From Lachnospiraceae bacterium (GTDB lineage: Bacteria > Bacillota > Clostridia > Lachnospirales > Lachnospiraceae): a DNA stretch of 64,000 bases. Location of the stretch: assembly GCA_902363665.1 (NCBI GenBank), contig CABJAW010000004.1, forward strand, positions 1 to 64,000, given 5' to 3'. The first letter of the stretch is position 1; each line of letters opens with the position of its first letter. Below are positions 1,037 through 62,952 of the stretch, piece by piece. Made by a program: the position numbers and the translations under genes. The notes below the pieces were generated by a model. That model saw nothing but the letters and a program-made list of their open reading frames with translations. It was not told where the DNA came from and did not search any database.

Positions 1037-1125
1037 TACGGACACCTCCCAGTTTTTGTGGCTTTTTTTGTGTATTAATTATACGATTGGCAGAGAAATG
1101 CGTCAATAGAGGAGTAATGTTTTTC

Positions 1126-1154
1126 TTGTGTACAGTGGAGTATGAGAGTATAAT
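1126..1154 (+). promoter_or_regulatory. Sigma-A promoter for the c-di-GMP riboswitch operon
   Basis: TTGTGT (1126-1131), 17-bp spacer, TATAAT (1149-1154). Transcription would start near 1161, about 35 bases before the riboswitch core. Confidence 0.6.
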
Positions 1155-1192
1155 AAAACCAGTTTTTTTACATAAATCTGAAGACTTTAAAA

Positions 1193-1475
1193 GGATGATC
1201 GGCAAAGCAGACGAAAGTCTGTGACGCAAAGCTACAGGGCCTGTCAAAGCGGATATTCGCAATCCGCTTCGCTACTTGCCGGATCATAAGGGATCCTCCC
1301 GCAAGCGGGTCCTTCCTTATGATATTTCATAACCGAGTAGCTGCTTTGCAGCTTATCAGGAGTGGCTTGTACCACTCCTGATACAAGCAAGTCCCCACCC
1401 ACTGCTTATTGCTCAGCGCAATTGAAGCAGGGGACTTGCCTGACTCGGTTAAAATGGCAGCCAGTTGCATGAAGT
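1193..1475 (+). ncRNA. Cyclic di-GMP-I (GEMM-I) riboswitch, split by an inserted repeat
   Basis: The 5' half at 1200-1242 carries GEMM-I hallmarks: GGCAAAGC, a GAAA-capped stem (the tetraloop), then GACGCAAAGC and a GGGCCT strand. The 3' half (ATGGCAGCCAGTTGC) is at about 1453-1468. In normal GEMM-I RNAs these halves are separated by only a short loop; here 208 bp of R element (1243-1450) sits between them. A terminator follows at 1483-1507 and the first gene starts at 1529, so the RNA was built to control the downstream signalling operon through c-di-GMP. Whether the split aptamer still folds is unknown: the insert is itself a closed palindromic structure and could act as an enlarged peripheral stem. 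Confidence 0.8.
1243..1450 (-). repeat. R element copy R1, inside the riboswitch
   Basis: A 208-bp multi-stem palindromic element in minus orientation. The outer stem AACCGAGT/ACTCGGTT encloses a long imperfect hairpin, a second hairpin with arms near ATCAGGAGTGG, and a short GC hairpin. It is followed by a conserved block built on CATAAGG/CCTTATG and a terminal GCGGAT/ATCCGC hairpin. It shares the whole 3' block with the copies at 9713 and 62587. No protein is encoded. Confidence 0.85.
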
Positions 1476-1482
1476 GATGTGT

Positions 1483-1507
1483 ACTGTCGGTAGGACAGTG
1501 TTTTTTT
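1483..1507 (+). terminator. Riboswitch expression-platform terminator
   Basis: ACTGTC (1483-1488) pairs with GACAGT (1494-1499), followed by G and seven T residues. It lies between the aptamer's 3' half and the first gene, the usual place for a transcription-terminating switch. Confidence 0.65.
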
Positions 1508-1528
1508 ATCAGGGAAGAGAGAAGGAAT

Positions 1529-3307
1529 ATGAAATTTAGAAAAACACAAAGCGTATGTCTTATTTTGACATGTATGGCAGTAACAGGACTTATTGGGTGT
1601 GGAAAAACAGATGAAACATCAGAGAAACACGAAGCAATTACCTTTATGGCTCCTTATCTGGATGTGGACAGCTTTATAAAAGAAGTGCATAAAACATATC
1701 CGGAGATCGAGCTTGAAGTAGTCCCGTACAGCGGAGCAAACACAACAACCTGTCTGCAGAATATGTTAGAAGCAGATGATTTTCCGGACATCTGCACACA
1801 GACCTTTTATAATCCGGATGTGGTGGATGTCAGTGATAAGATGATTGATCTCTCCAGATACGATTTTACAGATAATTATGTGGAATCACGTCTGAAAGAT
1901 GTATCCGATGATGGTGCGCTTTATATGCTTCCATCTTTGTACAACTGTTATGGAATCACTTATAATAAAACACTGCTTGAGAAACATGGCTGGAAGCTGC
2001 CAACATCTTTTGCAGAGCTTGAAGAACTTGCAGACAAGGCAAAAGAAGCAGGAGTCACGTTATGTATGGCACAGATTCAGTACCCTGGTTCCACCTTCCA
2101 GTATGTATGTAATATTGCGGATGCGGGATTCCTTAGTACCATGTCTGGAAAGCAGTGGCAGAAAGATTACCTGTCAGGAAAGGCAAATGTAAGCGATACA
2201 CCAGGCATGGTGGAAAGTATGGAATATATCCAAAAATGGAAAGACCTTGGGATGCTCGACTGCAGCAACAGTGATCCGGCAGATGATGGCAAAACAAGAG
2301 AAGATTTTATAAAGGGAAATTCACTGTTTCTATTGGGACCACAGAATGGCATTATGGACGCGGAAGATACAACAGACAAATTTGGTCTGATGCCATATCT
2401 GTCTGAAGACGGAAGCAGAAATGTATTTATTTTAAATGTAAACCGTTATTATGGATTGAATAAAGAGCTGGAGAATCATCCTGAGAAACTTGAAGATGCA
2501 TTAAAAGTCATGAAGGTGCTGTCTACGGTAGAAGGAACCAGCGCCCTGTATCCGGACAGCACATTAAAAGCAGGACTGCTTCCTTTCAAAGATGCGAAGG
2601 CGGATGACACCTTTTATGCAGATATTTCAGATATGATCAATACAGGGAATACGACACCGTTTATATATGCCGGATGGGAAAATACGATTGTAAATACCGG
2701 AACCAAAATGCTGGAATTCATGCAGGATAAGGCATCAATAAAGGATGTGGCAGATCAGCTGGACAAGGATCAGGACAGCGTGGTAAATAACCGGCCGGAA
2801 GTGATCACAACAGCTACAGAGGAAATCTCACAGGAAAGCTGTGCAAAGCTGGTGGGCAGGTGCTTCGCCGGGGCGACCGGAAGTGACATTGCTCTTATAT
2901 CCCTTGGAACATGGATCAGTGGAAATGGCACGAACCAGAACAATGATGGCGTGAGCGGAAAACTGTATGCAAAGAATATTACAGACTATGATATCTGTAC
3001 CATTCTTCCGACTGGCTGGTCACGGACGATTAATACAATCAGGCTGACGGGAAAACAGATTCAGGCATTGTATAAAGAAGGTTATGATGCAGTTGGTACA
3101 GGAAAGAATTATCCATATATGCTGGTAAATCCTGAAGATCTGAAACTGGAGGAAGGAAAGACTTATCAGGTCGCGATTTCCGGGATCAGCGAAAAACTTG
3201 CTTCGGAAGTGGAAGTGACAGACAGTGGGGTTGTAGGTCTGGATGCGGCAAAAGAATTTTTTGGGCAATTTAAGACTTTAAGTGAAGCGGACGCAAAATG
3301 GAACTAA
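1529..3307 (+). CDS. Extracellular solute-binding lipoprotein fused to a 5'-nucleotidase C-terminal-like domain
   Basis: 592 aa. The signal peptide ends in lipobox LIGC with C24 as the lipid-anchored residue, so the protein sits on the outer face of the membrane. Residues about 35-410 resemble family 1 ABC solute-binding proteins (YNKTLLEKHGWKLPTSFAEL is the typical pattern). From about 437 to the end it resembles the C-terminal substrate-binding domain of UshA-type 5'-nucleotidases (GSDIALISLGTW, then CTILPTGWSRTINTIRLTG). There are no permease or ATPase genes beside it; two hybrid kinases follow, so I infer a ligand-sensing rather than a transport role. It is the first gene after the c-di-GMP riboswitch. 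A catalytic metallophosphatase domain is absent. Confidence 0.8.
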   Translation: MKFRKTQSVCLILTCMAVTGLIGCGKTDETSEKHEAITFMAPYLDVDSFIKEVHKTYPEIELEVVPYSGANTTTCLQNMLEADDFPDICTQTFYNPDVVDVSDKMIDLSRYDFTDNYVESRLKDVSDDGALYMLPSLYNCYGITYNKTLLEKHGWKLPTSFAELEELADKAKEAGVTLCMAQIQYPGSTFQYVCNIADAGFLSTMSGKQWQKDYLSGKANVSDTPGMVESMEYIQKWKDLGMLDCSNSDPADDGKTREDFIKGNSLFLLGPQNGIMDAEDTTDKFGLMPYLSEDGSRNVFILNVNRYYGLNKELENHPEKLEDALKVMKVLSTVEGTSALYPDSTLKAGLLPFKDAKADDTFYADISDMINTGNTTPFIYAGWENTIVNTGTKMLEFMQDKASIKDVADQLDKDQDSVVNNRPEVITTATEEISQESCAKLVGRCFAGATGSDIALISLGTWISGNGTNQNNDGVSGKLYAKNITDYDICTILPTGWSRTINTIRLTGKQIQALYKEGYDAVGTGKNYPYMLVNPEDLKLEEGKTYQVAISGISEKLASEVEVTDSGVVGLDAAKEFFGQFKTLSEADAKWN

Positions 3308-3320
3308 GCGGAGGGGAAGG

Positions 3321-5582
3321 ATGCAGAAGGCAAAGAGTTACCGGAAATTAATATTGGGCTGCTGTATGGCTGGTATAGCAATGATTCTTGCATTCTTTTT
3401 CCTGTATCATACGTATATCCAGAATATTATCTATGAGGAACGGTTAAACCAGATGGAAGAGATTACCCGTCAGATGTTTCAAAATCTGGAAGATGTAATC
3501 GATTCCCACTGGGATCGGGTAACGGAAGAATGCAATTATCTGCAAGATGCAAATCTACAGACTACAGATGAACTCTGCAGACATATGAAAAAGAAGTATG
3601 ACTTATCAGCATATGCAGACCATAAGATCACGTTGATGGCAGTGGATTCAGAAGGCGGATATTATACTGAAAATGGATACAGGGGACTTTTTCGGGATCT
3701 GGATTATTTTGAAGAAAGTCCTGAAAAGATCAGTTTTGTTTTTGATTCTATGACAGACAATCAGTCAGAGATGGTATTTCTGAATCATCTTCCAGAGCCA
3801 ATACATCTTCAGAATGGAGAAAAGAAAACTTCAATTCTCTATTTTGGAATTTCCCAGGATATGGAACAACTGAATCCTTATTTTAACTGCGAAGCTTATA
3901 ACGGAAACAACAGTGTGTATGTACTGGACGATAATGGATTCAAACTGTTCAACAGCAATCAGGTAGAACTGATCAAAGGTCATAATGTATTTTCTGTTTT
4001 ACAGAATATGAAATATCTTCACAATTCTTCTTTTGAGAAAACAAAGGCGGAACTGGAAGAAAAAGGCTGCAGTTATTCTAATGCAGTTCTGGATGGAACA
4101 GAGTATTTTTACGGGTTAAAAAGAATGGAAAATGCCGAATGGACACTTATCTTCCTGGTTCCGGCAGAGTATGTTGCTACGAATACATTAAAACTTGTCA
4201 ATTTTGTCACGATATTTATCGTTATCTTTACGGTTATCGCAGCTGCCTGCGTTATGCTGGGAATTTCGTTTGTTATGCGCAGAAACCAGCAGGAAGCGAT
4301 CCGTGTGGAGCGGGAAAATAATGCGAAGCTGGAAACAGTGAATACAGAACTGCGGCAGGCAAACCAGGCGGCGGAAGAAGCTTTTCAGGTGGCACAGGAA
4401 GCGAACAGATCCAAGAGCAGTTTCCTTGCCAATATGTCTCACGATATACGTACTCCTATGAATGCAATCATTGGTATGACGTCACTGATCAGACATGATG
4501 CCGGTGATAAAGGCAAGGTAATAGAGTATGCGGATAAAATAGATATTTCATCACAGCATCTGTTAGGGATCATTAATGACGTTCTGGATATGAGTAAGAT
4601 CGAGGCAGGAAAAACAGTTTTCAAGTATTCTGATTTTTCGATAGCGGATTTTATACAGGAACTCGACACGATGTTTCATTCTCAGATATCTGAAAAAGAG
4701 CAGACCCTTACTATTTCAAAAGAAAATATCCGGCATGAGTGGGTGAATGGGGATCGAGTCCATTTGATGCAGATTTTCAGCAACCTGCTGTCTAATGCAA
4801 TAAAATATACACAGGAAGGCGGAAAAATTCAGCTTCTGGCAGAGGAATGTGAATCAAAATCTTCTGTTTATGCAAAGTACCGCTTTTTAGTCAGCGATAA
4901 TGGTATGGGAATGTCGGCGGATTTCAAGGATATGATCTTTGATGCATTTACCCGTGCAGAAAATTCCCTGACAAGTAAGATACAGGGAACAGGTCTTGGA
5001 ATGGCAATCACCAAAAATCTGGTTGATTCGATGGGCGGAACGATCGATGTAGAAAGTGAACCGGGACAGGGCAGCTGTTTTGAGATTTTTATGGATCTGA
5101 AAATTGCAGAAGAAAGATCTGTTTCTCCGGTGTCACAGGCAGAAACAGATGAGCAGGATGGTAATATCTTGCAGGGTATGCGGTTCCTGTGTGCAGAGGA
5201 TAATGAGATAAATGCAGAAATCCTGACGGAACTGTTAAAGATTGAAGGTGCGGAATGTACCATCTGTGAAAATGGTGAAGAGATTTTGAAAACATTTGAA
5301 CAGTCCGCTCCGGGTGATTATGACATGATCCTGATGGATGTGCAGATGCCTGTTATAAATGGTTATGAGGCAACAAAGGCAATCCGCAGAAGCTCCCATG
5401 AACTGGCAAAGACGATTCCGATCATTGCCATGACAGCCAATGCATTCTCAGAGGATATCCAGCATTCTCTGACAGCCGGTATGAATGCACATGTTTCAAA
5501 ACCGGTTGAAATGAAAGTACTGGAAAAGACGATCAGAAGCATAAAATCCGGCGGAGGGAGGTACCGAAACGCAGGCCATTGA
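3321..5582 (+). CDS. Membrane hybrid sensor histidine kinase with receiver domain
   Basis: 753 aa from ATG 3321, chosen because GGAGGGG lies just upstream; an in-frame ATG at 3282 lies inside the preceding gene and has no such site. Layout: TM helix near residues 10-30, an extracytoplasmic sensor region of about 250 residues (probably Cache-like), a second TM near 290-315, a coiled linker, and HisKA with phosphoacceptor H374 in SHDIRTP. The HATPase_c follows (N box SNLLSNAIKYT, DNGMGM, GTGLGMAI), then a receiver with D673 in LMDVQMP and the conserved KP. No output domain follows, so phosphate must pass to another protein. It lies 13 bp after the solute-binding fusion, its likely signal partner. 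Confidence 0.9.
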   Translation: MQKAKSYRKLILGCCMAGIAMILAFFFLYHTYIQNIIYEERLNQMEEITRQMFQNLEDVIDSHWDRVTEECNYLQDANLQTTDELCRHMKKKYDLSAYADHKITLMAVDSEGGYYTENGYRGLFRDLDYFEESPEKISFVFDSMTDNQSEMVFLNHLPEPIHLQNGEKKTSILYFGISQDMEQLNPYFNCEAYNGNNSVYVLDDNGFKLFNSNQVELIKGHNVFSVLQNMKYLHNSSFEKTKAELEEKGCSYSNAVLDGTEYFYGLKRMENAEWTLIFLVPAEYVATNTLKLVNFVTIFIVIFTVIAAACVMLGISFVMRRNQQEAIRVERENNAKLETVNTELRQANQAAEEAFQVAQEANRSKSSFLANMSHDIRTPMNAIIGMTSLIRHDAGDKGKVIEYADKIDISSQHLLGIINDVLDMSKIEAGKTVFKYSDFSIADFIQELDTMFHSQISEKEQTLTISKENIRHEWVNGDRVHLMQIFSNLLSNAIKYTQEGGKIQLLAEECESKSSVYAKYRFLVSDNGMGMSADFKDMIFDAFTRAENSLTSKIQGTGLGMAITKNLVDSMGGTIDVESEPGQGSCFEIFMDLKIAEERSVSPVSQAETDEQDGNILQGMRFLCAEDNEINAEILTELLKIEGAECTICENGEEILKTFEQSAPGDYDMILMDVQMPVINGYEATKAIRRSSHELAKTIPIIAMTANAFSEDIQHSLTAGMNAHVSKPVEMKVLEKTIRSIKSGGGRYRNAGH

Positions 5583-5648
5583 ATCGTAATAAATGGCAGC
5601 GAATCTGATATGAAAAAATCGAAAAGGATAGTTAGGGATAAAAGGAAA

Positions 5649-6464
5649 ATGAAAGGAAAAAGAGTGATTGCAGCCATGCTGCTTGCGGGAATTTTAGCAG
5701 TTACCCTGGCAGGGTGTAAAAATACAGATAACACGAAAGAAGAAACAGAAAAGCCTGTCATTACCCTCGGCAGTGATAACTATCCACCATACAATTATCT
5801 GAATGAGGATGGAATCCCGACAGGAATCGATGTGGAACTGGCTACAGAAGCTTTCAAAAGGATGGGATATCAGGTGGAGGTTGTCCAGATCAACTGGGAG
5901 GAGAAAAAAGAACTGGTGGAGAGCGGAGAGATTGACTGTATCATGGGATGTTTTTCCATGGAAGGACGCCTTGACGATTACCGCTGGGCGGGACCGTACA
6001 TAGCAAGCCGTCAGGTGGTCGCTGTAAATGCGAACAGTGATATCTATAAACTGAGTGACCTGGAGGGAAAGAACCTGGCTGTCCAGTCCACAACTAAACC
6101 GGAAGGCATCTTTCTGAACCGGACAGATGAAAAAATCCCTAAACTGGGCAATCTGATCAGTCTTGCACACCGGGAGCTGATCTATACGTTTCTGGGAAAA
6201 GGATATGTAGATGCAGCTGCCGCACATGAGGAATCTGTTGTCCAGTACATGAAGGATTATGATACAAGCTACCGTATCCTGGAAGAGCCTCTGATGATCA
6301 CCGGAATAGGCGTTGCTTTTGCAAAAGATGATGACAGAGGAATCTGTGAGCAGATGGAACAGACTCTGGAAGAAATGCGGCAGGACGGCACGACTCTGAA
6401 AATCGTTGGAAAATATCTGGATGATCCGGAAAAGTATCTGGAGGTGGATGATCTTGAATATTAA
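5649..6464 (+). CDS. Family 3 solute-binding lipoprotein (amino-acid type)
   Basis: 271 aa from ATG 5649, which gives an ideal lipoprotein signal peptide (KGKR, hydrophobic core, LAGC with C23). An upstream in-frame ATG at 5610 would add 13 basic residues but has no clear binding site. The body is a bacterial SBP family 3 fold: the opening ITLGSDNYPPYNYLNEDG, then PTGIDVELATEAF and LEGKNLAVQS, which in transporters bind amino acids. No permease or ATPase gene is adjacent; it lies between two hybrid kinase genes, with its 3' end holding the ribosome binding site of the second. I infer that it presents a ligand to that kinase. Confidence 0.85.
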   Translation: MKGKRVIAAMLLAGILAVTLAGCKNTDNTKEETEKPVITLGSDNYPPYNYLNEDGIPTGIDVELATEAFKRMGYQVEVVQINWEEKKELVESGEIDCIMGCFSMEGRLDDYRWAGPYIASRQVVAVNANSDIYKLSDLEGKNLAVQSTTKPEGIFLNRTDEKIPKLGNLISLAHRELIYTFLGKGYVDAAAAHEESVVQYMKDYDTSYRILEEPLMITGIGVAFAKDDDRGICEQMEQTLEEMRQDGTTLKIVGKYLDDPEKYLEVDDLEY

Positions 6465-8607
6465 GAGAAAGAAAAACGAAAAACGAATCCAGCTGGTCGG
6501 CGGTCTGATTGGAATCTGTGTGGCTGTAGTCTCTCTGTTTTATTTCTTCCACGCAGAAAAAGCGGAAGCAGAAAAAAGAATGGTGGAGATTGTAAACTAT
6601 GTGAAAGTACAGTGCTCCACCTACACCCATTATAATGAATCTTCGGAATCCAAAAGTCTTCTCCGTGCCATTGAAAGTGCCAGACAGATGAGTACAAATA
6701 TTCAAATGGAAACAGAAAACGGCGGTCAGTTAAGCCGGGAATTTTTGAAAGGAAATCTGCAAACTCTCTGGGTGGATGGTATCATTGTACTGGATAAAGA
6801 AGGAAAGACGGAGTGTGAATACAGCACGGATGAATCTCTTGCCAATGAGATTGCGGAGTATCTGCAAAAAGAAATTATCATGGATTTTGCCGGATATGAA
6901 GAAAGATCTTATTCAGAACGGTTTGCCAGGGAAGATGGATCCTATATTGACATTGCAGCCTGTGCCAGAAAAGATGCACCGGGTATCGTTGCGATCTATT
7001 ATTACACATCTCCTGAATTTACCAGAAATTATACCCTGACGATACAAGGACTTTTAAATGGTTATAGTGTCCAGAAGGATGGAACGATTATTGTTGCAGA
7101 CGATGGGATCGTTGTTGCCAGTAATGATGAGGGGCTGTTAGGGCAGAATACAGCCGATAACGAAGTTGTTCAGGCAATGAAAAAGCATACAGACAGTCAG
7201 CACATTTATCATTTGAAGAATGAAGGAATTGGATGCTACGGAATCATGCTGAAGCAGAGGGATTATTATATCTATGCATATCTTTCGGATGCGGAAGTGT
7301 TCCATAATCTTCTATTAAGTGTGATAAGCGTTATTTTTCTTTATTTCCTGATGTTCAGTATATTCTGGTTCTGGACATACAGAACCAATCAGTCGCACCG
7401 GAAACAGGAAGTGGAAAAGGACGAAAAATATAAATCAGAACTTCTGATAGCCGCTAAAAAGGCAGAAGCCGCCAATGAGGCAAAAACAGAGTTCCTTCAG
7501 CGGATGAGTCATGATATCCGGACTCCAATCAATGGAATCTGCGGCCTGGTCAATATGGCAGAGTATTATGCAGATGATATGGAAAAACAGACGGAATACA
7601 GGACAAAGGTGAAAGAAGCATCCCATCTGCTTCTGGAACTGGTAAATGATATTCTGGACATGAGTAAGCTTGAGTCAGGTGAAATTATTCTGGAAGAGAT
7701 TCCATTTAATCTGAGCAGTATTTCCAGGGAAGTATTTGTTGTGATCGAGCAGATGGCTGCAGAACAGAATATCCGGATCGTGTGGGAGAAAAAAGAAATC
7801 ACACATCGTGATTTTATTGGAAGCCCGGGGTATGTGAAACGGGTGATGATGAATATTTTGTCGAATGCAGTGAAATATAACAGAGAAAACGGACATATCT
7901 ATATCAGCTGCATGGAAATTCCATCCGAACAGCCAGAAATGGCGACAATGGAATTTGTTTGTCGTGATACTGGAATCGGAATGACTGAGGAGTTCCAGAA
8001 ATGTGTGTTTGAACCATTTGCACAGGAACATACAGGAAGCCGCACAAAATTTGCAGGAACAGGCCTGGGAATGGCAATTGCAAAGAATCTGGTCGAGAAA
8101 ATGGGTGGAACGATTACTTTTGAAAGTGAAAAAGGTGTAGGGACGACATTTGTGATTCGGGTTCCGTTTAAAATAGATATGGATGCGGACAAACGTGAAG
8201 AACAGAAGGATGTATCCGAAAAATCTATAAAGGGGCTGTATATTCTTCTGGCAGAAGATAATGAGCTGAATATGGAGATCGCAGAATTTATGCTGCAGAA
8301 TGAGGGTGCTGTTGTGACAAAAGCATGGAATGGACAGGAAGCTGTTGAACTGTTCGAAAAAAGCAGACCTGGTGAATTTGATGTCATTCTTATGGATATC
8401 ATGATGCCGGTCATGAATGGTTATGAAGCTGCAAAGATGATCAGGTCTCTGGACAGAGAGGATGCAAAGGAGGTACCGATCATTGCAATGACAGCAAATG
8501 CGTTCACGGAGGACAGAATAAGAGCAAAAGAAGCGGGAATGGATGATCATATTGCTAAGCCTGTTGATGCAAAATTACTGATAAAGGTAATTCATGAATT
8601 GCTATAG
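6454..8607 (+). CDS. Second membrane hybrid sensor histidine kinase with receiver domain
   Basis: 717 aa if translation starts at TTG 6454, which lies a normal distance after GGAGGTGG (6440-6447). The in-frame ATG at 6448 is too close to that site and the ATG at 6406 has none. It overlaps the previous gene's end by 11 bp, suggesting coupling. One TM near the N-terminus, an extracytoplasmic sensor of about 260 residues, TM near residues 285-310, then HisKA with H353 (SHDIRTPIN), HATPase_c (NILSNAVKYN, DTGIGM, GTGLGMAI) and a receiver with D648 in LMDIMMP. It has the same plan as the kinase at 3321 but a different sensor. The final phosphate acceptor is not obvious in the window. Confidence 0.88.
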   Translation: MNIKRKKNEKRIQLVGGLIGICVAVVSLFYFFHAEKAEAEKRMVEIVNYVKVQCSTYTHYNESSESKSLLRAIESARQMSTNIQMETENGGQLSREFLKGNLQTLWVDGIIVLDKEGKTECEYSTDESLANEIAEYLQKEIIMDFAGYEERSYSERFAREDGSYIDIAACARKDAPGIVAIYYYTSPEFTRNYTLTIQGLLNGYSVQKDGTIIVADDGIVVASNDEGLLGQNTADNEVVQAMKKHTDSQHIYHLKNEGIGCYGIMLKQRDYYIYAYLSDAEVFHNLLLSVISVIFLYFLMFSIFWFWTYRTNQSHRKQEVEKDEKYKSELLIAAKKAEAANEAKTEFLQRMSHDIRTPINGICGLVNMAEYYADDMEKQTEYRTKVKEASHLLLELVNDILDMSKLESGEIILEEIPFNLSSISREVFVVIEQMAAEQNIRIVWEKKEITHRDFIGSPGYVKRVMMNILSNAVKYNRENGHIYISCMEIPSEQPEMATMEFVCRDTGIGMTEEFQKCVFEPFAQEHTGSRTKFAGTGLGMAIAKNLVEKMGGTITFESEKGVGTTFVIRVPFKIDMDADKREEQKDVSEKSIKGLYILLAEDNELNMEIAEFMLQNEGAVVTKAWNGQEAVELFEKSRPGEFDVILMDIMMPVMNGYEAAKMIRSLDREDAKEVPIIAMTANAFTEDRIRAKEAGMDDHIAKPVDAKLLIKVIHELL

Positions 8608-9712: not shown

Positions 9713-9833
9713 AACCGAGTCAAGCTGTGAAGCAGCTACTCGGTTATGAAATATCATAAGGAAGGACCCGCTTGCGGGAGGATCCCTTATGATCCTGCAA
9801 GTAGCGAAGCGGACCTGGAATATCCGCCTTGAC
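9713..9833 (+). repeat. R element copy R2, at the start of the diguanylate cyclase gene
   Basis: A 121-bp plus-oriented version of R that keeps the outer stem AACCGAGT/ACTCGGTT and the conserved 3' block but lacks the two large inner hairpins of R1 and R3. It contains GGGAGG (9776-9781) and ATG 9789, which read in frame into the following gene. Confidence 0.85.
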
Positions 9834-11369
9834 AGAGAAATTGAAAACAAAAATTTTGGACAGGGGGGTGTCGTTATCAGTCAGAGAAGATTTGACCTGA
9901 AAGATTATACGAAAACAATTCTATTATTTATAGCGGCAGTTGCGTTTGGCGTTGCAGTATTTTTCGTGTGTGCGGAGTATTCGATCAGTGAAAACTCACA
10001 GGATACGGTCCGGGCGACTGTAACGCGCCAGAGCGAACATCTTCGCTCTATGATGGAACTGCATTATCAGTATCTGCAGATCGTTGCCGATCAGATCGGA
10101 GAGACGGATGACATCATTTCCGATGAAAATATGAAGATGATCGCCAACCTGCATGAATATACGGATCTGGAACTTTCTGCGATCATAGAACCGGACGGAA
10201 CCTCGCATTATGACAATGGAACAGAAAAAAATGTAGCCCACCGCAGTTATTTTCAGGAGGCGATGGAAGGAAAGCAGGCGCTCAGTGACCCGCTGGAAAG
10301 CAGTGTTGACCAGGAGACACGGGTTGTGCTCAGTGTTCCAATCAAGCGGGATGAAGTGGTGGTTGGTGTACTTGGTGCATCATACAATGTCACTGCTCTG
10401 AGCCGTCTGATGTTCAATGATACGTTTGGCGGTGTCGGGTACAGCCTGATCGTTACGCAGGACGGAGAGATTATTGCATATGACGGAGAACCGTCACACC
10501 ATAAGATTTCTTATGGTGACAATTTCTTTGAATTTTACAGTGATAAGAAAATCATGGAGAATATCTCGCTCCTGGATGTGCAGAAAGATTTCAACGAGGG
10601 AAAATCCGGTCTGTTCCGGATGCGGGATGCACAGGGGAAGCGGGCATCGGAGCAGTATCTCTCTTACGTACCGCTTGGAATGAATAACTGGATGATCTGT
10701 TACATGCTTCCGCTTTCGGCGGCGCTGCAGCCGTATCGTTTTTTTACGACGTATGAAGTTTTTTTTATCATCGGATTCTGCATTCTGGTTGTGATTCTCT
10801 TTGTCTGTATCCTGAAAAAAAACAGTCAGAAGAACCGGGAACTGCTTAAGGCATCCCAGATGGATGCGCTGACCGGACTTTACAACAAAAAGGTGACAGA
10901 GGAGCGAATCAATGAAGTGCTCCTGGAGCAGCCGGAAGCGATGCATGCATTTCTGATCCTGGATCTCGACCGTTTCAAGAAAGTGAACGATGGGTACGGA
11001 CATGCAGCCGGCGATGCCGTTCTGCGTGAGTTTGCAGGACTGCTGCGGAATTATTTCCGGGAAAATGATGTGATCGGACGGATCGGCGGAGATGAGTTTG
11101 TCGTCCTTATGAAAAACGTGGATTCAAAAGACTCCGTACGAAACCGGGCGGGAGGTCTGGTGCAGAAGATCGGTGAGCTGGAATTTTCAGGCATGCCGGA
11201 GCATATCACAAGCAGTATCGGAATTGCATTCGCACCGGAACAGGGCGACTGCTACATGGATTTATATAAGGCGGCTGACGGGGCGCTGTATGAGACGAAG
11301 CGCCGCGGCAGAAACGGTTATACCGTGAGCCTTCAGATGTGTGAGCTGAAGGAAGAAAAGACGGAGTAA
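9789..11369 (+). CDS. Membrane diguanylate cyclase with extracellular Cache-like sensor
   Basis: 526 aa. TM near residues 38-58, an extracytoplasmic sensor (about 60-310, dCache-like, with SYFQEAMEGK), a second TM near 317-340, and a GGDEF domain from about 355. The active site is intact, GGDEF at 433-437, and an RxxD inhibitory site (REND, 424-427) lies at the standard five residues before it, so it should make c-di-GMP with product feedback. There is no EAL or HD-GYP domain. The only good in-frame start, ATG 9789 with GGGAGG, lies inside R element R2, so about 15 N-terminal residues derive from the repeat. An ATC following AGGGGGG (near 9876) may mark the original start. Confidence 0.88.
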   Translation: MILQVAKRTWNIRLDREIENKNFGQGGVVISQRRFDLKDYTKTILLFIAAVAFGVAVFFVCAEYSISENSQDTVRATVTRQSEHLRSMMELHYQYLQIVADQIGETDDIISDENMKMIANLHEYTDLELSAIIEPDGTSHYDNGTEKNVAHRSYFQEAMEGKQALSDPLESSVDQETRVVLSVPIKRDEVVVGVLGASYNVTALSRLMFNDTFGGVGYSLIVTQDGEIIAYDGEPSHHKISYGDNFFEFYSDKKIMENISLLDVQKDFNEGKSGLFRMRDAQGKRASEQYLSYVPLGMNNWMICYMLPLSAALQPYRFFTTYEVFFIIGFCILVVILFVCILKKNSQKNRELLKASQMDALTGLYNKKVTEERINEVLLEQPEAMHAFLILDLDRFKKVNDGYGHAAGDAVLREFAGLLRNYFRENDVIGRIGGDEFVVLMKNVDSKDSVRNRAGGLVQKIGELEFSGMPEHITSSIGIAFAPEQGDCYMDLYKAADGALYETKRRGRNGYTVSLQMCELKEEKTE

Positions 11370-11437
11370 GGCAGAAGACAAAGCTGTGCTGAAAGCAGAA
11401 AAAAACGAGAATGTTCGGAATTAACGAAAAAAATAAT

Positions 11438-11578
11438 GTAACTGTTCAGAGCAACCTCCAAAATGCTACGCATTTTGGAGGTGTGGCGTATCCGCCAAAT
11501 AAAATTTCAAAAACAGGCTTAAAAATGCAAGCATTTTCCGCCTGTTTTATGAAATTTTGCTTGGCTCTGAACAGTTAC
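11438..11578. mobile_element. MITE copy A with 8-bp target duplication
   Basis: 141 bp bounded by GTAACTGTTCAGAGC and its inverted repeat, with an internal inverted repeat too. The 8 bases on each side (AAAATAAT) are identical. No coding capacity. The outer ends match copies at 13027 and 36910; the centre differs from them. Confidence 0.88.
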
Positions 11579-11706
11579 AAAATAATGTGAAAAAAGAGCA
11601 ATACAATTGGAAGAAAATCGGTTATAATACGGTTGGTAGGCAAGAGAGAAAACCGGCTGTATGAGAGACATCAGCCGGCAAAAGAAAATAAAAGGAGTAA
11701 CGTCAT

Positions 11707-12858
11707 ATGAAAATTACAGACAGCATTAAATACGTAGGTGTCAATGACCATCAGGTTGACCTGTTTGAGGGCCAGTACAAGGTGCCAAATGGCATGTCCT
11801 ATAATTCTTACGTGATTCTTGACGAGAAGGTAGCAGTCATGGATACGGTGGATGCGCACTTTACCGACGAGTGGCTTGGCAATCTCGCACGTGTCCTTGA
11901 TGGACGCAAGCCGGATTATCTCGTTGTACAGCATATGGAGCCGGATCACGCGGCGAACGTTGCCAATTTTATGAAAGCATATCCGGAGACGACTGTCGTA
12001 GCAAATGCAAAGACATTTGTCATGATCAAAAATTTCTTTGAACTGGATCTGGAGGGCCGGAAGCTGGTTGTGGAAAATGGCAGCTCCTTAAGCCTTGGAA
12101 GCCACACGCTGACCTTTGTATTCGCACCGATGGTGCACTGGCCGGAGGTTATGGTGACGTATGAAAGCAGCGAAAAGGTACTGTTTTCAGCGGATGGCTT
12201 CGGAAAGTTTGGAGCACTTGATGTGGAGGAAGACTGGGATGACGAGTCCAGAAGATACTTTATCGGGATCGTCGGAAAGTACGGTGCACAGGTACAGGCG
12301 CTTCTGAAAAAGGCGGCGGCACTTGATATTTCCATTATCTGCCCGCTGCACGGACCGGTTCTGACCGAAAATCTGGGTCACTACATTGGGCTGTATGACA
12401 CGTGGTCCTCTTATCGTCCGGAAGAGGAAGGCGTTGTGATCGCCTATACTTCCGTTTACGGACATACAAAGAAAGCGGTAGAACTGCTTGCTGAGAAATT
12501 AAAAGCAAATGGAGCGCCGAAAGTAGTCGTTTATGATCTGGCAAGGGATGATATGTCGGCGGCAGTTGCAGATGCATTCCGCTACAGCAGGCTTGTGCTC
12601 GCAACGATTACATACAATGGCAGTATTTATCCGTTCATGAACGATTTCGTTACCCGCCTTGTCGAGCACAACTTCCAGAACCGTACGGTCGGGCTGATTG
12701 AGAATGGTTCCTGGGCGCCGACGGCAGCCAGAGTGATAAAGAAGATGATGGAAGGAAGCAAGAATATCAAGTGGACTGACACAACCGTGACGATCATGTC
12801 AGCCGTAAAGCAGGAGAATGTGGAGCAGATCGAGGCGATGGCGAAGGAGCTGTGCTGA
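11707..12858 (+). CDS. fprA: FprA-type flavodiiron protein
   Basis: 383 aa, ATG 11707 after AAAGGAG. N-terminal metallo-beta-lactamase-like domain with all di-iron ligands: H76, E78, D80 and H81 in HMEPDH, H144 in MVHWPEV, D163 in SADGFG, H215 in PLHGP. Residues about 255-383 form a flavodoxin domain (YTSVYGHTKKA binds FMN phosphate). Such proteins reduce O2 to water, and in some cases NO, in the cytoplasm of anaerobes, taking electrons from rubredoxin or ferredoxin-type donors. No rubredoxin domain is fused. Thioredoxin, Crp/Fnr and ferredoxin genes lie nearby, consistent with redox defence. The product family is clear; substrate preference is not. Confidence 0.92.
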   Translation: MKITDSIKYVGVNDHQVDLFEGQYKVPNGMSYNSYVILDEKVAVMDTVDAHFTDEWLGNLARVLDGRKPDYLVVQHMEPDHAANVANFMKAYPETTVVANAKTFVMIKNFFELDLEGRKLVVENGSSLSLGSHTLTFVFAPMVHWPEVMVTYESSEKVLFSADGFGKFGALDVEEDWDDESRRYFIGIVGKYGAQVQALLKKAAALDISIICPLHGPVLTENLGHYIGLYDTWSSYRPEEEGVVIAYTSVYGHTKKAVELLAEKLKANGAPKVVVYDLARDDMSAAVADAFRYSRLVLATITYNGSIYPFMNDFVTRLVEHNFQNRTVGLIENGSWAPTAARVIKKMMEGSKNIKWTDTTVTIMSAVKQENVEQIEAMAKELC

Positions 12859-12998: not shown

Positions 12999-13026
12999 TA
13001 AGTGAACAGTTAGAACAAAAATCAGG

Positions 13027-13171
13027 GTAACTGTTCAGAGCCAACCTCCAAAATGCTACGCATTTCGTCGGTGTGGCGTATCCGCCAAATAGATTTCCAT
13101 GTAAAAGTGTTCATTCATGCAAGCATGATTCACACTTTTGCATGAAAATCTGCTTGGCTCTGAACAGTTAC
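13027..13171. mobile_element. MITE copy B with 8-bp target duplication
   Basis: 145 bp with GTAACTGTTCAGAGCC terminal inverted repeats and a central AAAGTG/CACTTT hairpin. Flanks are a perfect AAATCAGG duplication (13019-13026 and 13172-13179). The right-hand copy of the duplication contains the stop codon of the thioredoxin gene. Nearly identical inside to copy C at 36910. Confidence 0.92.
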
Positions 13172-13174
13172 AAA

Positions 13175-13483
13175 TCAGGAAATCATTCCGAGAATTACAT
13201 CCCCTGGATGCACTCCGCTGATCCGTTTTACCGTCCGTCCGTTCTGAAAAAGGATAAGCGTTGGAATGCTCAAAATCTGAAATCGTTCGGCCAGCTCGGG
13301 CTCTTCCTCTACGTTGATCTTTCCGATCAGAAGATCGGGTTTTGCAGCGGAAACTTCTTCCAGAATCGGCGCAAGCATCCGGCAGGGGGCACACCAGTCG
13401 GCCCAGAAGTCGAGCAGTACCGGAGCAGAGGAAGCGCATACGTTTGTTTCAAAATCAGAATCGTGAATTGTAAGAATTGGCAT
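13175..13483 (-). CDS. trxA: Thioredoxin
   Basis: 102 aa, a complete thioredoxin fold. The active site is WCAPC with C31 and C34, the alanine replacing the more usual glycine; the cis-proline is in IPTLILF. It reduces protein disulfides in the cytoplasm. AAAGGAGG precedes its start. MITE copy B inserted exactly at its stop codon, leaving the coding sequence whole but replacing its original 3' flank. No thioredoxin reductase is adjacent. CAPC variants are known in Clostridia; whether it works with an NADPH- or ferredoxin-dependent reductase cannot be seen here. Confidence 0.9.
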   Translation of the reverse strand: MPILTIHDSDFETNVCASSAPVLLDFWADWCAPCRMLAPILEEVSAAKPDLLIGKINVEEEPELAERFQILSIPTLILFQNGRTVKRISGVHPGDVILGMIS

Positions 13484-27947: not shown

Positions 27948-27969
27948 TATTGGGGGGATGGAGGAGAAA

Positions 27970-27994
27970 GCGGATTGCGAATATCCGTTTTGAC
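27970..27994 (+). repeat. R element remnant R6
   Basis: GCGGATTGCGAATATCCG then TTTTGAC matches the 3' terminal hairpin of R1 with one change. No other part of the element is recognisable. Confidence 0.5.
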
Positions 27995-28029
27995 ATGAAT
28001 CAGGGCAAGAAGTTGAGGAGTGACAATAT

Positions 28030-31365: not shown

Positions 31366-31575
31366 GTGCGCCTAGCGACGCACGTTTCTAACGGGTCAAA
31401 GTCCCGAATCCGCCCGGTAGTGAGAAGGATATAGCCGAAGGCAAGGGTGTCCATCGTGAGATGGAATCTGAAGGAAGCTGGATGTGAGGAACATACTAAC
31501 TCACAGGCAAATCTCTGGTCTGACGAACAGAAATCTCATATGAGGTCATGCATGAGGGTAAGACTGCCATACTAA
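31366..31575 (+). mobile_element. Group II intron 5' fragment (domain I), no intron-encoded protein
   Basis: Starts with GTGCGCCTAGCGACGCAC, a typical bacterial group II intron 5' splice-site end, and continues with domain I segments (GAAGGAAGC, GACGAACAGAAATCTCATAT). About 200 bp are present. No reverse transcriptase/maturase gene and no domain V or VI hairpin follow before the next gene, so this is a 5' truncated remnant that landed just after the rpsI terminator. Confidence 0.7.
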
Positions 31576-31583
31576 AAATCTCA

Positions 31584-31613
31584 TTGCGTATTTAGACGCA
31601 GTATGCTTATAAT
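31584..31613 (+). promoter_or_regulatory. Promoter for the hydrolase / NRPS-like cluster
   Basis: TTGCGT (31584-31589), 18-bp spacer, TATAAT (31608-31613), about 90 bp before the start codon. Confidence 0.5.
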
Positions 31614-31704
31614 GAGTCTATGGTGAAAGACCTTAAAGCTGTCTAATATAACTGGAGTTTTATAGGCGGTATTCTTATTAAAAATGTGAACTGCGGAGGA
31701 AATC

Positions 31705-36877: not shown

Positions 36878-36909
36878 AGTCGATTCCCTCCCATATTTAT
36901 AAATATAAT

Positions 36910-37053
36910 GTAACTGTTCAGAACCACCTCCAAAATGCTGCGCATTTCGTCGGTGTGGCGTATCCGCCAAATAGATTTCCATGTAAAAGTGTTCATTCAT
37001 GCAAGCATGATTCACACTTTTGCATGAAAATCTGCTTGGCTCTGAACAGTTAC
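36910..37053. mobile_element. MITE copy C with 8-bp target duplication
   Basis: 144 bp, inner sequence nearly identical to copy B, with GTAACTGTTCAGA terminal inverted repeats. Flanks are a perfect AATATAAT duplication. It lies upstream of the TetR gene and may alter its promoter. Confidence 0.92.
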
Positions 37054-37140
37054 AATATAATAAAGTATAACACAAATCCAATCGTATAAGAACAAGAAAA
37101 AATAGCTATTGATTGTATTTATATTAAGTTTTCAACAACA

Positions 37141-37970: not shown

Positions 37971-37984
37971 CAGAAAAAATTACA

Positions 37985-38090
37985 GTCTTCGGGGCAAGGT
38001 GTAATTCCTGACCGGCAGTATAGTCTGCGAGCAAAAGCTGATATGGTGCAATTCCATAAGCGACAGTAAAGTCCGGATGAGAGAAGATAT
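37985..38090 (+). ncRNA. FMN riboswitch (RFN element)
   Basis: All conserved RFN blocks appear in order: TCTTCGGGGCAAGGTG, AATTCCTGACCGGCAGTA, a GCGAGC stem, GGTGCAATTCC, CGACAGTAAAGTCCGGATG and GAGAGAAGA. It binds FMN and usually lowers transcription of riboflavin genes. Here it leads to the remains of ribU, via the terminator at 38103. Confidence 0.95.
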
Positions 38091-38102
38091 GATAAAACAA
38101 GT

Positions 38103-45394: not shown

Positions 45395-45578
45395 GGACAA
45401 AGAAATGTCGCTTTCCATGCGACCACTCCACAAAAGAAAATCACTATACTATGGCTGCAAGGTATGAAACCGAGCAGCCATATGCGCGTGTAATGAGCCA
45501 AAGTTCGAGCTTGCTCGAAACCTTGGCGAATACCGCGACAGCGAGCCCGCAAGGGCGAGATTTTGGGAGGACAAGCAT

Positions 45579-46238
45579 ATGAGAAAGAATTTAACAGAGA
45601 TCGTTTTTATCTTAGACCGCAGCGGTTCCATGAATGGATTGGAACGGGATACCATCGGCGGATTCAATTCCATGATTGAGCAGCAGAAAAAAGCAGAGGG
45701 CGAAGCACTGATTTCAACGGTATTGTTTGACAATGTGAGTGAAGTCCTGCATGACCGTGTAAATGTAAAGGACATCGAACCGATGACCGACCGGGATTAC
45801 ACGGTTCGCGGATGCACGGCACTCTTAGATGCCATCGGCGGTGCGATTCATCACATTGGAAATGTTCACAAGTACGCAAGGCAGGAGGATGTGCCGGAAC
45901 ATACCCTGTTTGTAATCACTACGGACGGAATGGAAAATGCCAGCCGCCGGTACAACAGCGAAAAAGTGAAGCAGATGATCGAGCGTCAGAAAACAAAATA
46001 CGGTTGGGAATTTTTGTTCCTTGGTGCCAATATTGACGCAGTAGAGACCGCAAGCCAGTTTGGAATCGGTGCAGATCGTGCAGTCAACTATCAGTGCGAC
46101 AGCGAAGGGACTGCGCTCAATTATGAGGTGGTCAGCGAAGCAATCAGCTCTGTAAGGTGCAGTGCCAAGCTGAGTGCAGACTGGAAAAAGCGTATAGACG
46201 AGGATTACAAAAAGCGCGGAGGCCGCAAGCACAAGTAA
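45579..46238 (+). CDS. VWA-domain (TerY-like) protein
   Basis: 219 aa, ATG 45579 after GGGAGG. A stand-alone von Willebrand factor A domain: MIDAS DxSxS is D13-S15-S17 (ILDRSGSM), followed by the MIDAS Thr region (VRGCTALLDAIGG) and TTDGMEN. No signal peptide, so a cytoplasmic metal-dependent protein-binding module, similar to TerY of tellurite/stress clusters. Nearly identical to the C-terminal part of the chimeric gene at 61012. Partner unknown; the macro-domain protein upstream is a candidate. Confidence 0.88.
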   Translation: MRKNLTEIVFILDRSGSMNGLERDTIGGFNSMIEQQKKAEGEALISTVLFDNVSEVLHDRVNVKDIEPMTDRDYTVRGCTALLDAIGGAIHHIGNVHKYARQEDVPEHTLFVITTDGMENASRRYNSEKVKQMIERQKTKYGWEFLFLGANIDAVETASQFGIGADRAVNYQCDSEGTALNYEVVSEAISSVRCSAKLSADWKKRIDEDYKKRGGRKHK

Positions 46239-61011: not shown

Positions 61012-62574
61012 ATGAAGAAACCCAATGAAAATGATATTCTGGAAACCACATTGTCCATCGCAGAAAAGGGATACCTGGAAGCTTATCAATTTTTGCTGAA
61101 TGCCTACGAGGAAAGCCCAAGCAGCTTTGGGCCGCAAACATTCTACTTCCTTGCCTGTTTGGCCGATGGGCCGGGGGCGGCTTTGGAGTGGCTGCGAAAG
61201 GCCATTCAAGAAAATAACTGGTGGTATCGCCCGGAAGTGTTGGAGGATGACGACCTTGCAGCGCTTAAAAATGATGCAGAATTCCTTTCGCTGAAAGCAA
61301 TTTCGGACGCCCGCTATGCGGCTGCCGTTTCCAAGTCAACGGCGATTTTTTCATGGAAGAAGAAAATGGCAGACAACCTGTTTCTGGCCATTCATGGGAA
61401 CACACAAAACGGTGACGTCGCGCGGGCAGATTGGAAACCGATTGTGGGAACAAGCGGCCTGTGGCAGTTGGAAACCATCCAGAGTGCCGAACCGGACGGC
61501 TATGGAACCTATCGTTGGAGCTATGACAACACTTCCTATTTGCCGGTGGCAAATTCCATGGAAAGGGTACAAACCCAGGGCTACCACAAAATTGCCTGCG
61601 GCGGCTTTTCTGCCGGATGCGATATGCTTTTGCGTGCGGTCGTATTTTCGCCTGCACACTGCGATCTGCTGATCCTGCAAAGCCCTTGGATTCCCGTATT
61701 GCAGGATCAGGCAGAAGATGTGGTTCGTGCCATTTCGCAAAAGAACATCGTGCTTCGGATTTTCTGCGGTGCAGAGGATGAGGACTGCCTTCCTATGGCA
61801 GAGCAGTTATATGCCGTGGCGAAGCAAGCGGGCTGCAATGTGGCGCTGACCGTTCAGGAGAACACCCGGCATCAGTTTCCGGTGCAGCCGTACTATGTTT
61901 GGGAGGACAAGCATATGAGAAAGAATTTAACAGAGATCGTTTTTATCTTAGACCGCAGCGGTTCCATGAATGGATTGGAACGGGATACCATCGGCGGATT
62001 CAATTCCATGATTGAGCAGCAGAAAAAAGCAGAGGGCGAAGCACTGATTTCAACGGTATTGTTTGACAATGTGAGTGAAGTCCTGCATGACCGTGTAAAT
62101 GTAAAGGACATCGAACCGATGACCGACCGGGATTACACGGTTCGCGGATGCACGGCACTCTTAGATGCCATCGGCGGTGCGATTCATCACATTGGAAATG
62201 TTCACAAGTACGCAAGGCAGGAGGATGTGCCGGAACATACCCTGTTTGTAATCACTACGGACGGAATGGAAAATGCCAGCCGCCGGTACAACAGCGAAAA
62301 AGTGAAGCAGATGATCGAGCGTCAGAAAACAAAATACGGTTGGGAGTTTTTGTTCCTTGGTGCCAATATTGACGCGGTAGAGACTGCAAGCCAGTTCGGA
62401 ATCGGTGCAGATCGTGCAGTCAACTATCAGTGCGACAGTGAAGGGACTGCGCTGAATTATGAGGTGGTCAGCGAAGCAATCAGCTCTGTAAGGTGCAGTG
62501 CCCCGCTGAGCGCAGACTGGAAAAAGCGTATAGACGAGGACTACAAAAAGCGTGGAGGCCGCAAGCACAAGTAA
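61012..62574 (+). CDS. Chimeric hydrolase-VWA protein
   Basis: 520 aa from ATG 61012, after GAGGAAC. Residues 1-110: helical TPR-like region (AYEESPSSFGPQTFYFLACL). Residues about 120-300: alpha/beta hydrolase with nucleophile-like elbow GGFSAGCDM, GAEDEDCLP and His in NTRHQFP. At residue 302 a full second copy of the VWA protein begins (MRKNLTEIVF), in frame, with the VWA gene's own ribosome binding site and ATG still present (61903-61917). So a duplication of the VWA gene landed in the hydrolase gene, removing its stop. Both the fusion and free VWA could be made. Confidence 0.75.
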   Translation: MKKPNENDILETTLSIAEKGYLEAYQFLLNAYEESPSSFGPQTFYFLACLADGPGAALEWLRKAIQENNWWYRPEVLEDDDLAALKNDAEFLSLKAISDARYAAAVSKSTAIFSWKKKMADNLFLAIHGNTQNGDVARADWKPIVGTSGLWQLETIQSAEPDGYGTYRWSYDNTSYLPVANSMERVQTQGYHKIACGGFSAGCDMLLRAVVFSPAHCDLLILQSPWIPVLQDQAEDVVRAISQKNIVLRIFCGAEDEDCLPMAEQLYAVAKQAGCNVALTVQENTRHQFPVQPYYVWEDKHMRKNLTEIVFILDRSGSMNGLERDTIGGFNSMIEQQKKAEGEALISTVLFDNVSEVLHDRVNVKDIEPMTDRDYTVRGCTALLDAIGGAIHHIGNVHKYARQEDVPEHTLFVITTDGMENASRRYNSEKVKQMIERQKTKYGWEFLFLGANIDAVETASQFGIGADRAVNYQCDSEGTALNYEVVSEAISSVRCSAPLSADWKKRIDEDYKKRGGRKHK

Positions 62575-62952
62575 ATGTTTTTTGAACGCAGATAAGCATT
62601 CCCCGCTTCAAGTGCGCGGAGCACTAAGCGGCGGGTGAGGGGGATGCTTATGTCAGTGGGAGTTGAAAGCTCCCACTGACAGATCGCGAAGCGACTGCGT
62701 TCATGAAATATCATAAGGGGGAACCCGCTTGCGGGAGATTCCTTATGATCCTACAAGTAGCGAAGCGGATTGCGAATGTCCACTTTACGCCGGGGTGATG
62801 ATTCGCTCCGGCGTTTTCTATGGCAGGAACTGCCGTTAAAGCATCCGGAACGGGCGCAAGATGTCCGGTGGACGTCTGCTTTGCGCGAATCGGAGTGGAG
62901 ACTTCCCCAACAAGCAGGGCTTTCGTGTTACGAAAGCCCTGCTTGCAGAAGA
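61902..62952. repeat. Right copy of the VWA direct repeat
   Basis: Same sequence and orientation as 45566-46523 with few substitutions (for example one Lys to Pro near the VWA C-terminus), interrupted by R3. Similarity stops after CCTGCTTGCAGAAG on both sides. Confidence 0.85.
62587..62788 (+). repeat. R element copy R3, with empty site in the window
   Basis: A 202-bp plus-oriented full copy. Its outer stem is GAACGCAG/CTGCGTTC; inner hairpins have arms GTCAGTGGGAG/CTCCCACTGAC and GCATTCCCC/GGGGGATGC; the 3' block matches R1 and R2. In the left VWA repeat the same site reads TTTTTTGAA-GCCGGGG with no insert (46242-46257), which fixes the borders to within three bases. No target duplication is seen beyond that. 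Confidence 0.9.

Follow-up and report, generated by a model that had tools for sequence, protein, structure and literature searches.

The leader of a solute-binding protein and histidine kinase operon in a Lachnospiraceae bacterium carries the two conserved parts of a c-di-GMP-I (GEMM-I) riboswitch aptamer on either side of a palindromic repeat, which raises the question of whether a mobile element has split a single aptamer and whether the switch still works. We analyzed this leader within a window of 64,000 nucleotides (GenBank assembly GCA_902363665.1, contig CABJAW010000004.1, positions 1 to 64,000), to which all coordinates refer unless a locus is named; features lie on the forward strand unless stated otherwise. 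Segments 1191–1242 and 1449–1475 are the two halves of one c-di-GMP-I aptamer. The 5′ half, assigned by its match to the Rfam model RF01051 and by its undisturbed conserved columns, comprises P2 with its GAAA loop, the junction and the 5′ strand of P3, reading GACGCAAAGCTACAGGGCCT after P2. The 3′ half comprises the 3′ strand of P3 and the closing segment, and was assigned by the same segment in intact relatives. A covariance-model scan (cmscan) reported RF01051 at 1191–1279 with 38.0 bits (cut-off 35), using the first hairpin of the inserted repeat, R1, as the 3′ half; 1191–1244 alone scored 37.8 bits. We rejected this match as the whole aptamer, as its 3′ half is borrowed from R1 and relatives place the true one behind the insert. 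Rfam did not detect the 3′ half alone. We also built a profile HMM from 29 related aptamers, with the window excluded. In the filled site it recovered the two halves in the correct order (50.5 and 16.5 bits), and it scored them at 77.8 bits when joined; none of 100 shuffles of the joined sequence was reported. No deviation occurs in the 40 aptamer columns conserved at ≥90% in the 29 relatives, and every pair tallied in the window is standard (9/9 in P3 and 5/5 in P2). Both helices covary among the relatives, with one P3 pair being C-G in 22, U-A in six and U-G in one of the 29. A preliminary description of the window had held that both conserved GEMM-I halves remain, and the undisturbed columns bear this out, as does the joined score, here taken from a profile HMM in place of the covariance model that the description had proposed. 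The ligand of most GEMM RNAs is c-di-GMP, and that of rare variants c-AMP-GMP (PMC7266159); the window leader would probably have c-di-GMP as its ligand. Among 20 related leaders, seven (L064, L067, L070, L071, L073, L077 and L080) match c-di-GMP-I-GGC (RF03167) best, at 54.9–58.6 bits, below its cut-off of 59.

Searching with the protein encoded by the first operon gene yielded four related loci, in Blautia sp. MSJ-9 (L001), Brotaphodocola (L002), B. wexlerae (L003) and Hominifimenecus (L004). R1 (1243–1448, 206 bp) is absent from the orthologous leaders L001, L003, L004 and L068, whose aptamers are uninterrupted (RF01051, 54.7, 54.7, 57.7 and 54.0 bits, respectively); in L068, the sequence behind the leader matches the start of the same gene. 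In L002, most of the aptamer has been lost at this place. The join is seamless, the empty site reading GGGCCTGTAAAATGG and the filled one GGGCCTGTCAAAG...CTCGGTTAAAATGG, and alignment with the empty sites revealed no target-site duplication of 2 bp or more at R1. The ends of R1 are ambiguous by 1–2 bases (1243–1448 to 1245–1450), and comparison with the empty sites gives 206 bp in place of the 208 bp first proposed for the insert. Across 64 genomes of the genus of Blautia sp. MSJ-9, the exact 5′ motif occurs at 34 places in 15 genomes, and all 34 aptamers are uninterrupted (28 by a gapped pattern and the other six by reading); this count covers one exact 20-base motif, GEMM-I aptamers of other sequence lying outside it. 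Because the four orthologous leaders and all 34 motif-bearing aptamers are uninterrupted, R1 is almost certainly a derived insertion. The preliminary description had singled out sister genomes as the place to look for an uninterrupted version, or else for the same stretch as an ancestral part of the leader: the relatives carry the former (54.0–57.7 bits) and, having an empty site, show that the 206 bp are not ancestral. We therefore rejected an ancestral R1 lost in the relatives, a vanishingly improbable history for which only logical possibility speaks, given seamless joins without R1 in the four orthologs, the same state in the 34 aptamers of the genus, and a dispersed repeat of which four other aligned copies have sites without it elsewhere. 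A pattern for the filled junction, specific to R1's orientation and place, matched none of 397 sampled Lachnospiraceae genomes, an even sample of the larger bacterial family, and no viral contig. The insertion is so far known from this one window, the relatives compared being other species. As a separate observation, L002 retains a remnant of the aptamer 5′ half (L002:5075–5100) before an operon of four genes, and an orphan 3′ half together with a terminator (L002:12307–12360) lies 7.2 kb beyond this remnant, past the operon and preceding an 840-aa hybrid-kinase-like frame; either two deletions occurred or the operon was placed between two half aptamers.

R1 is a member of a modular palindromic mobile repeat family, which we call a MITE-like palindromic repeat rather than a MITE, and folding predicts it to be a chain of hairpins. 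The window holds two further copies on the reverse strand, with ends counted by eye: R2 (9715–9833; matched at 9722–9835) is inverted and 93% complementary to R1, and R3 (62584–62788; matched at about 62600–62786) is 78% identical to R1 with the same module order. A lone piece of the left module also lies at 27968–27995 (96% over 28 bases). Genomes G001 and G003 contain at least 44 and at least 45 matches to the repeat, respectively. The left module of R1 (≤3 mismatches) was found in 41 of the 397 sampled genomes, with 68 copies in the richest, and its reversed control pattern gave none in the listed counts. Copies come in nested sizes of 45 bp (L121, L127), 74 bp (L108) and ~162 bp (the majority of the 26 copies in which both ends could be located); R1, R2 and R3 have an extra hairpin of ~47 bp that is missing from the aligned G001 and G003 copies. 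The right module is palindromic by itself in L017; in the full element, the left and right ends are different. Flanks were searched for 18 copies, and nine pairs aligned, covering four copies (L036, L006, L012 and L037). Since the corresponding sites in other genomes lack the repeat for all four, the family has, on this sequence comparison, moved. The preliminary reading, in which a structured mobile repeat splits a GEMM-I aptamer, thus agrees both with the uninterrupted relatives and with the dispersed copies of R1. The junctions of these four copies are A/T-rich with untidy left ends, and target-site duplication amounts to at most TTA at L037, with none clear at L036, L006 and L012. Absent duplication and a constant TAAA end would suggest an IS200/IS605-like origin; because the left ends at the other empty sites are untidy, we name no transposition mechanism. 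In two other genomes, at L069 and L072, a short repeat copy read by eye lies directly behind the riboswitch terminator; at that junction, the body of the gene is missing, and what follows is just the final part of a binding-protein or kinase gene.

The position of R1 within the aptamer has a simple candidate explanation. TAAA terminates 24 of the 26 copies for which both ends were located, a count that leans towards this end because the search pattern contained it, with mismatches allowed. The joined aptamer contains one TAAA, which is the P3 apical loop, and no TTAA or TTTA. As the single aptamer TAAA coincides with the TAAA ends of the repeat copies, the neat fit in the loop probably reflects target choice and not selection for a working arm. 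The preliminary description had R1 in place of the short peripheral loop, and the insertion site is this only TAAA; its picture of a closed palindrome joining the halves is replaced by several predicted hairpins at a place probably explained by the target sequence. Natural loops at the insertion point range from 4 to ~26 nt in relatives, and some read TTTAAAA in the P3 loop, so that a T or G may have stood at the loop position before insertion.

Downstream of the aptamer, an intrinsic terminator with an 8-pair stem and a U-run occupies 1481–1507 (stem 1481–1501), the same place as in relatives, and is the only terminator-like site listed within 1050–1600. The operon starts at 1529, so the terminator and operon described earlier are both in place behind the aptamer. 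Upstream, a putative promoter read by eye (1126–1154) consists of TTGTGT (1126–1131), 17 nt and TATAAT (1149–1154); it is conserved in L001, L003 and L004, and a consensus scan did not call it. When the leaders of eight relatives were folded without the terminator 3′ arm, the 5′ arm was predicted to pair mostly with the aptamer 3′ strand in all eight, as a candidate antiterminator. Forcing the native aptamer raised terminator probability in six of the eight and lowered it slightly in two. These data fit an OFF switch with moderate strength only, and the leaders of the relatives are, by this modelling, probably an OFF-type platform: before the terminator is completed, its 5′ arm would pair with the aptamer 3′ strand, and a ligand-held aptamer would release the arm for terminator formation. 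In the window, the terminator 5′ arm is predicted to prefer the aptamer's 5′ GGCA segment over the 3′ strand, and forcing the native aptamer left terminator probability unchanged at 0.88. The window terminator is the weakest in comparison with eight relatives (−8.8 versus −10.7 to −14.1); with another segment cut, it falls within the range of 12 close relatives (−10.8 versus −10.5 to −15.2). The modelled antiterminator is weaker than in 12 close relatives (−7.4 versus −8.3 to −12.6). Separately, L001 and L003 (9815–9965 in each) both have, between terminator and gene, a hairpin-rich stretch of another kind, which neither the window nor L004 contains; this leader seems to admit repeats.

Folding of the filled leader, which covers secondary structure only, gave a z-score of −6.5 with the long stems in R1. 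The expected number of pairs between R1 and the rest of the leader was 4.1, whereas 100 shuffled inserts averaged 27.9 with a minimum of 2.0; these keep base composition only, and at least one of the 100 had fewer outside pairs (2.0) than R1. The base of P3 was kept as well by one of the 100 shuffled inserts. Relative to the best fold, the forced native P3 conformer cost 7.8 kcal/mol with R1 and 3.7 kcal/mol without it, a difference that makes native P3 ~4 kcal/mol costlier in the folding model when R1 is present. The earlier idea that R1 folds on itself is therefore upheld by the few predicted outside pairs, but not to the extent of leaving the aptamer free of cost. The model prefers non-native P3 pairing even in intact relatives, so the energies leave out something real, presumably the tetraloop–receptor contact together with the ligand.

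Whether the switch still works can thus be judged from both sides. The account that we favour, with about even confidence in it as a whole, is that R1 inserted at the only TAAA of the aptamer, in the P3 apical loop, with the conserved positions unchanged; that it most likely forms a self-contained domain of several hairpins added to the tip of P3; and that the filled RNA would still be able to adopt the aptamer fold and would retain a response to c-di-GMP, a less efficient one than in the relatives. Retained function is favoured by the unchanged halves, the standard pairing of all tallied P2 and P3 positions and the scarcity of predicted contacts between R1 and the aptamer; the energies of the native fold (7.8 versus 3.7 kcal/mol), the flat terminator probability of 0.88, the preference of the terminator 5′ arm for the GGCA segment and the weaker terminator and antiterminator count against it. 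Among the relatives compared, no aptamer loop contains an insertion of R1's size. The insertion may be recent, and the unchanged halves therefore need not mean function. On balance, we regard some retained switching as slightly likelier than full loss, at close to an even chance.

The main alternative, which we consider a serious one while putting it below an even chance, is that R1 broke the aptamer, so that c-di-GMP is no longer sensed and the operon is constitutive or basal at a level set by the weak terminator. The ~4 kcal/mol penalty for native P3 points this way, as do the 206 nt with several strong hairpins between the halves, a terminator (by one segment cut) and antiterminator weaker than any compared, and the lack of a filled relative in the 64 genomes or, for R1's orientation, in the 397. 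Yet a broken aptamer sits less well with conserved positions that are all unchanged and with an insert that hardly pairs with the aptamer, and its energy argument comes from a model that prefers non-native P3 even where the aptamer is intact. Because the platform in relatives looks OFF-like, loss of aptamer function would probably mean an operon that stays ON; intact downstream genes are thus no argument for a working switch. At the other end, it is unlikely that R1 is a working peripheral domain that extends P3 and retunes the response, through weaker affinity or a ~200-nt transcription delay between the halves; if true, a natural aptamer would have gained an arm by mobile-element insertion. 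Finally, repeats of R1's kind can be processed by ribonuclease, and the long stems of R1 with the leader z-score of −6.5 would suit post-transcriptional cleavage of its hairpins that separates the aptamer from the operon mRNA and lets the repeat set mRNA level or stability, but attenuation acts during transcription, before much processing, and we hold this to be quite improbable.

The genes behind the leader fit the earlier description of two kinase/ligand pairs. The operon begins with a full-length extracellular solute-binding protein of 592 aa (1529–3307; Pfam SBP_bac_8/SBP_bac_1), 93% identical to L001 over residues 1–591, followed by a hybrid histidine kinase with a receiver domain (3282–5582; HisKA, HATPase_c, Response_reg), a family 3 solute-binding protein (5610–6464; SBP_bac_3) and a second hybrid histidine kinase with a receiver domain (6406–8607; HisKA, HATPase_c, Response_reg), giving two binding-protein/hybrid-kinase pairs by Pfam. 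The diguanylate cyclase reported 8 kb off is likewise present, as a dCache-GGDEF gene that starts ~8 kb on (9789–11369); a gene for a microcompartment-domain protein also lies downstream of the second kinase, before the cyclase in gene order. R2 overlaps the listed start of the cyclase gene (9789), and since that start lies inside R2, the true start is likely later. That one repeat copy sits at a c-di-GMP switch and another at a c-di-GMP synthase gene is probably coincidence. Over 4.1 kb, the unit of binding protein and kinase shares ~92% identity with L001, whereas window gene 11707–12858 is at best 76% identical among the 64 genomes of that genus, and these two comparisons suggest horizontal transfer of the unit. 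The same gene has three matches at E 1e-200 or better in the 397 sampled genomes, all at 74% within that E range. Positions 1119–5582, covering switch, binding protein and kinase, are 85–92% identical across genera (L001, L002, L003 and L004) with unmatched flanks, which suggests that the three travel as a unit. Elsewhere in the window, we noted a second, unrelated dispersed repeat in three copies (11429–11607, 13019–13200 and 36901–37082); identical 300-base copies ~16 kb apart (45562–45861 and 61898–62197) with methylase, helicase-endonuclease and TIR-domain genes between them; a group II intron D1–D4 match (31450–31637, 59.4 bits); and an FMN riboswitch (37981–38092, 100.6 bits).

The locus is an experiment of nature on the amount of additional RNA that a riboswitch can accommodate before it fails. 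Aptamers vary in their peripheral arms, and it is seldom possible to watch such an arm arise. At this locus, sequence comparison reveals the donor repeat family, which is present in many genomes of the bacterial family, along with the insertion target, relatives with an empty site and the precise junction; tolerance of a 206-nt self-folding insert can therefore be measured. A covariance-model scan can also misread a split riboswitch, as the 38 bits obtained with a wrong 3′ half illustrate, and similar cases may therefore hide in annotations.

In the open-licence literature, we found no description of a mobile repeat inside a riboswitch aptamer, or of Blautia or Lachnospiraceae repeats of R1's kind. 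The part of one source drawn on here concerns a riboswitch aptamer mutated by point changes (PMC8546581). According to a 2024 MITE review, riboswitches or terminators could conceivably be formed by MITEs, and BOX elements contain T-box-like motifs; the passages drawn on describe no insertion within an aptamer, which is where R1 sits (PMC10969869). As with MITEs and the modular repeats BOX and RUP in those passages, R1 is short, non-coding, multi-copy, hairpin-forming and modular, with copies that lie mostly outside genes (PMC10969869), and it differs from MITEs in lacking a target duplication and in having terminal inverted repeats that are unclear over the whole element. Mobile attenuators, in the portion of the account used, similarly place mobile-element sequence within a transcription-attenuation leader, but there the element supplies the terminator upstream of genes, whereas R1 lies within the sensing part of a leader whose terminator belongs to the host (PMC2965389). 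Rickettsia palindromic elements are, like R1, palindromic repeats in a functional product that may stay functional; the passages cited describe them in protein genes, while the host of R1 is a riboswitch aptamer (PMC10969869). With the c-di-GMP-I riboswitch itself (RF01051; near relative RF03167), the window leader shares the conserved core, the P2 GAAA hairpin, a P3 with an AG bulge and a terminator behind, and it differs in a P3 apical loop that carries a 206-nt mobile repeat where natural loops read 4 to ~26 nt.
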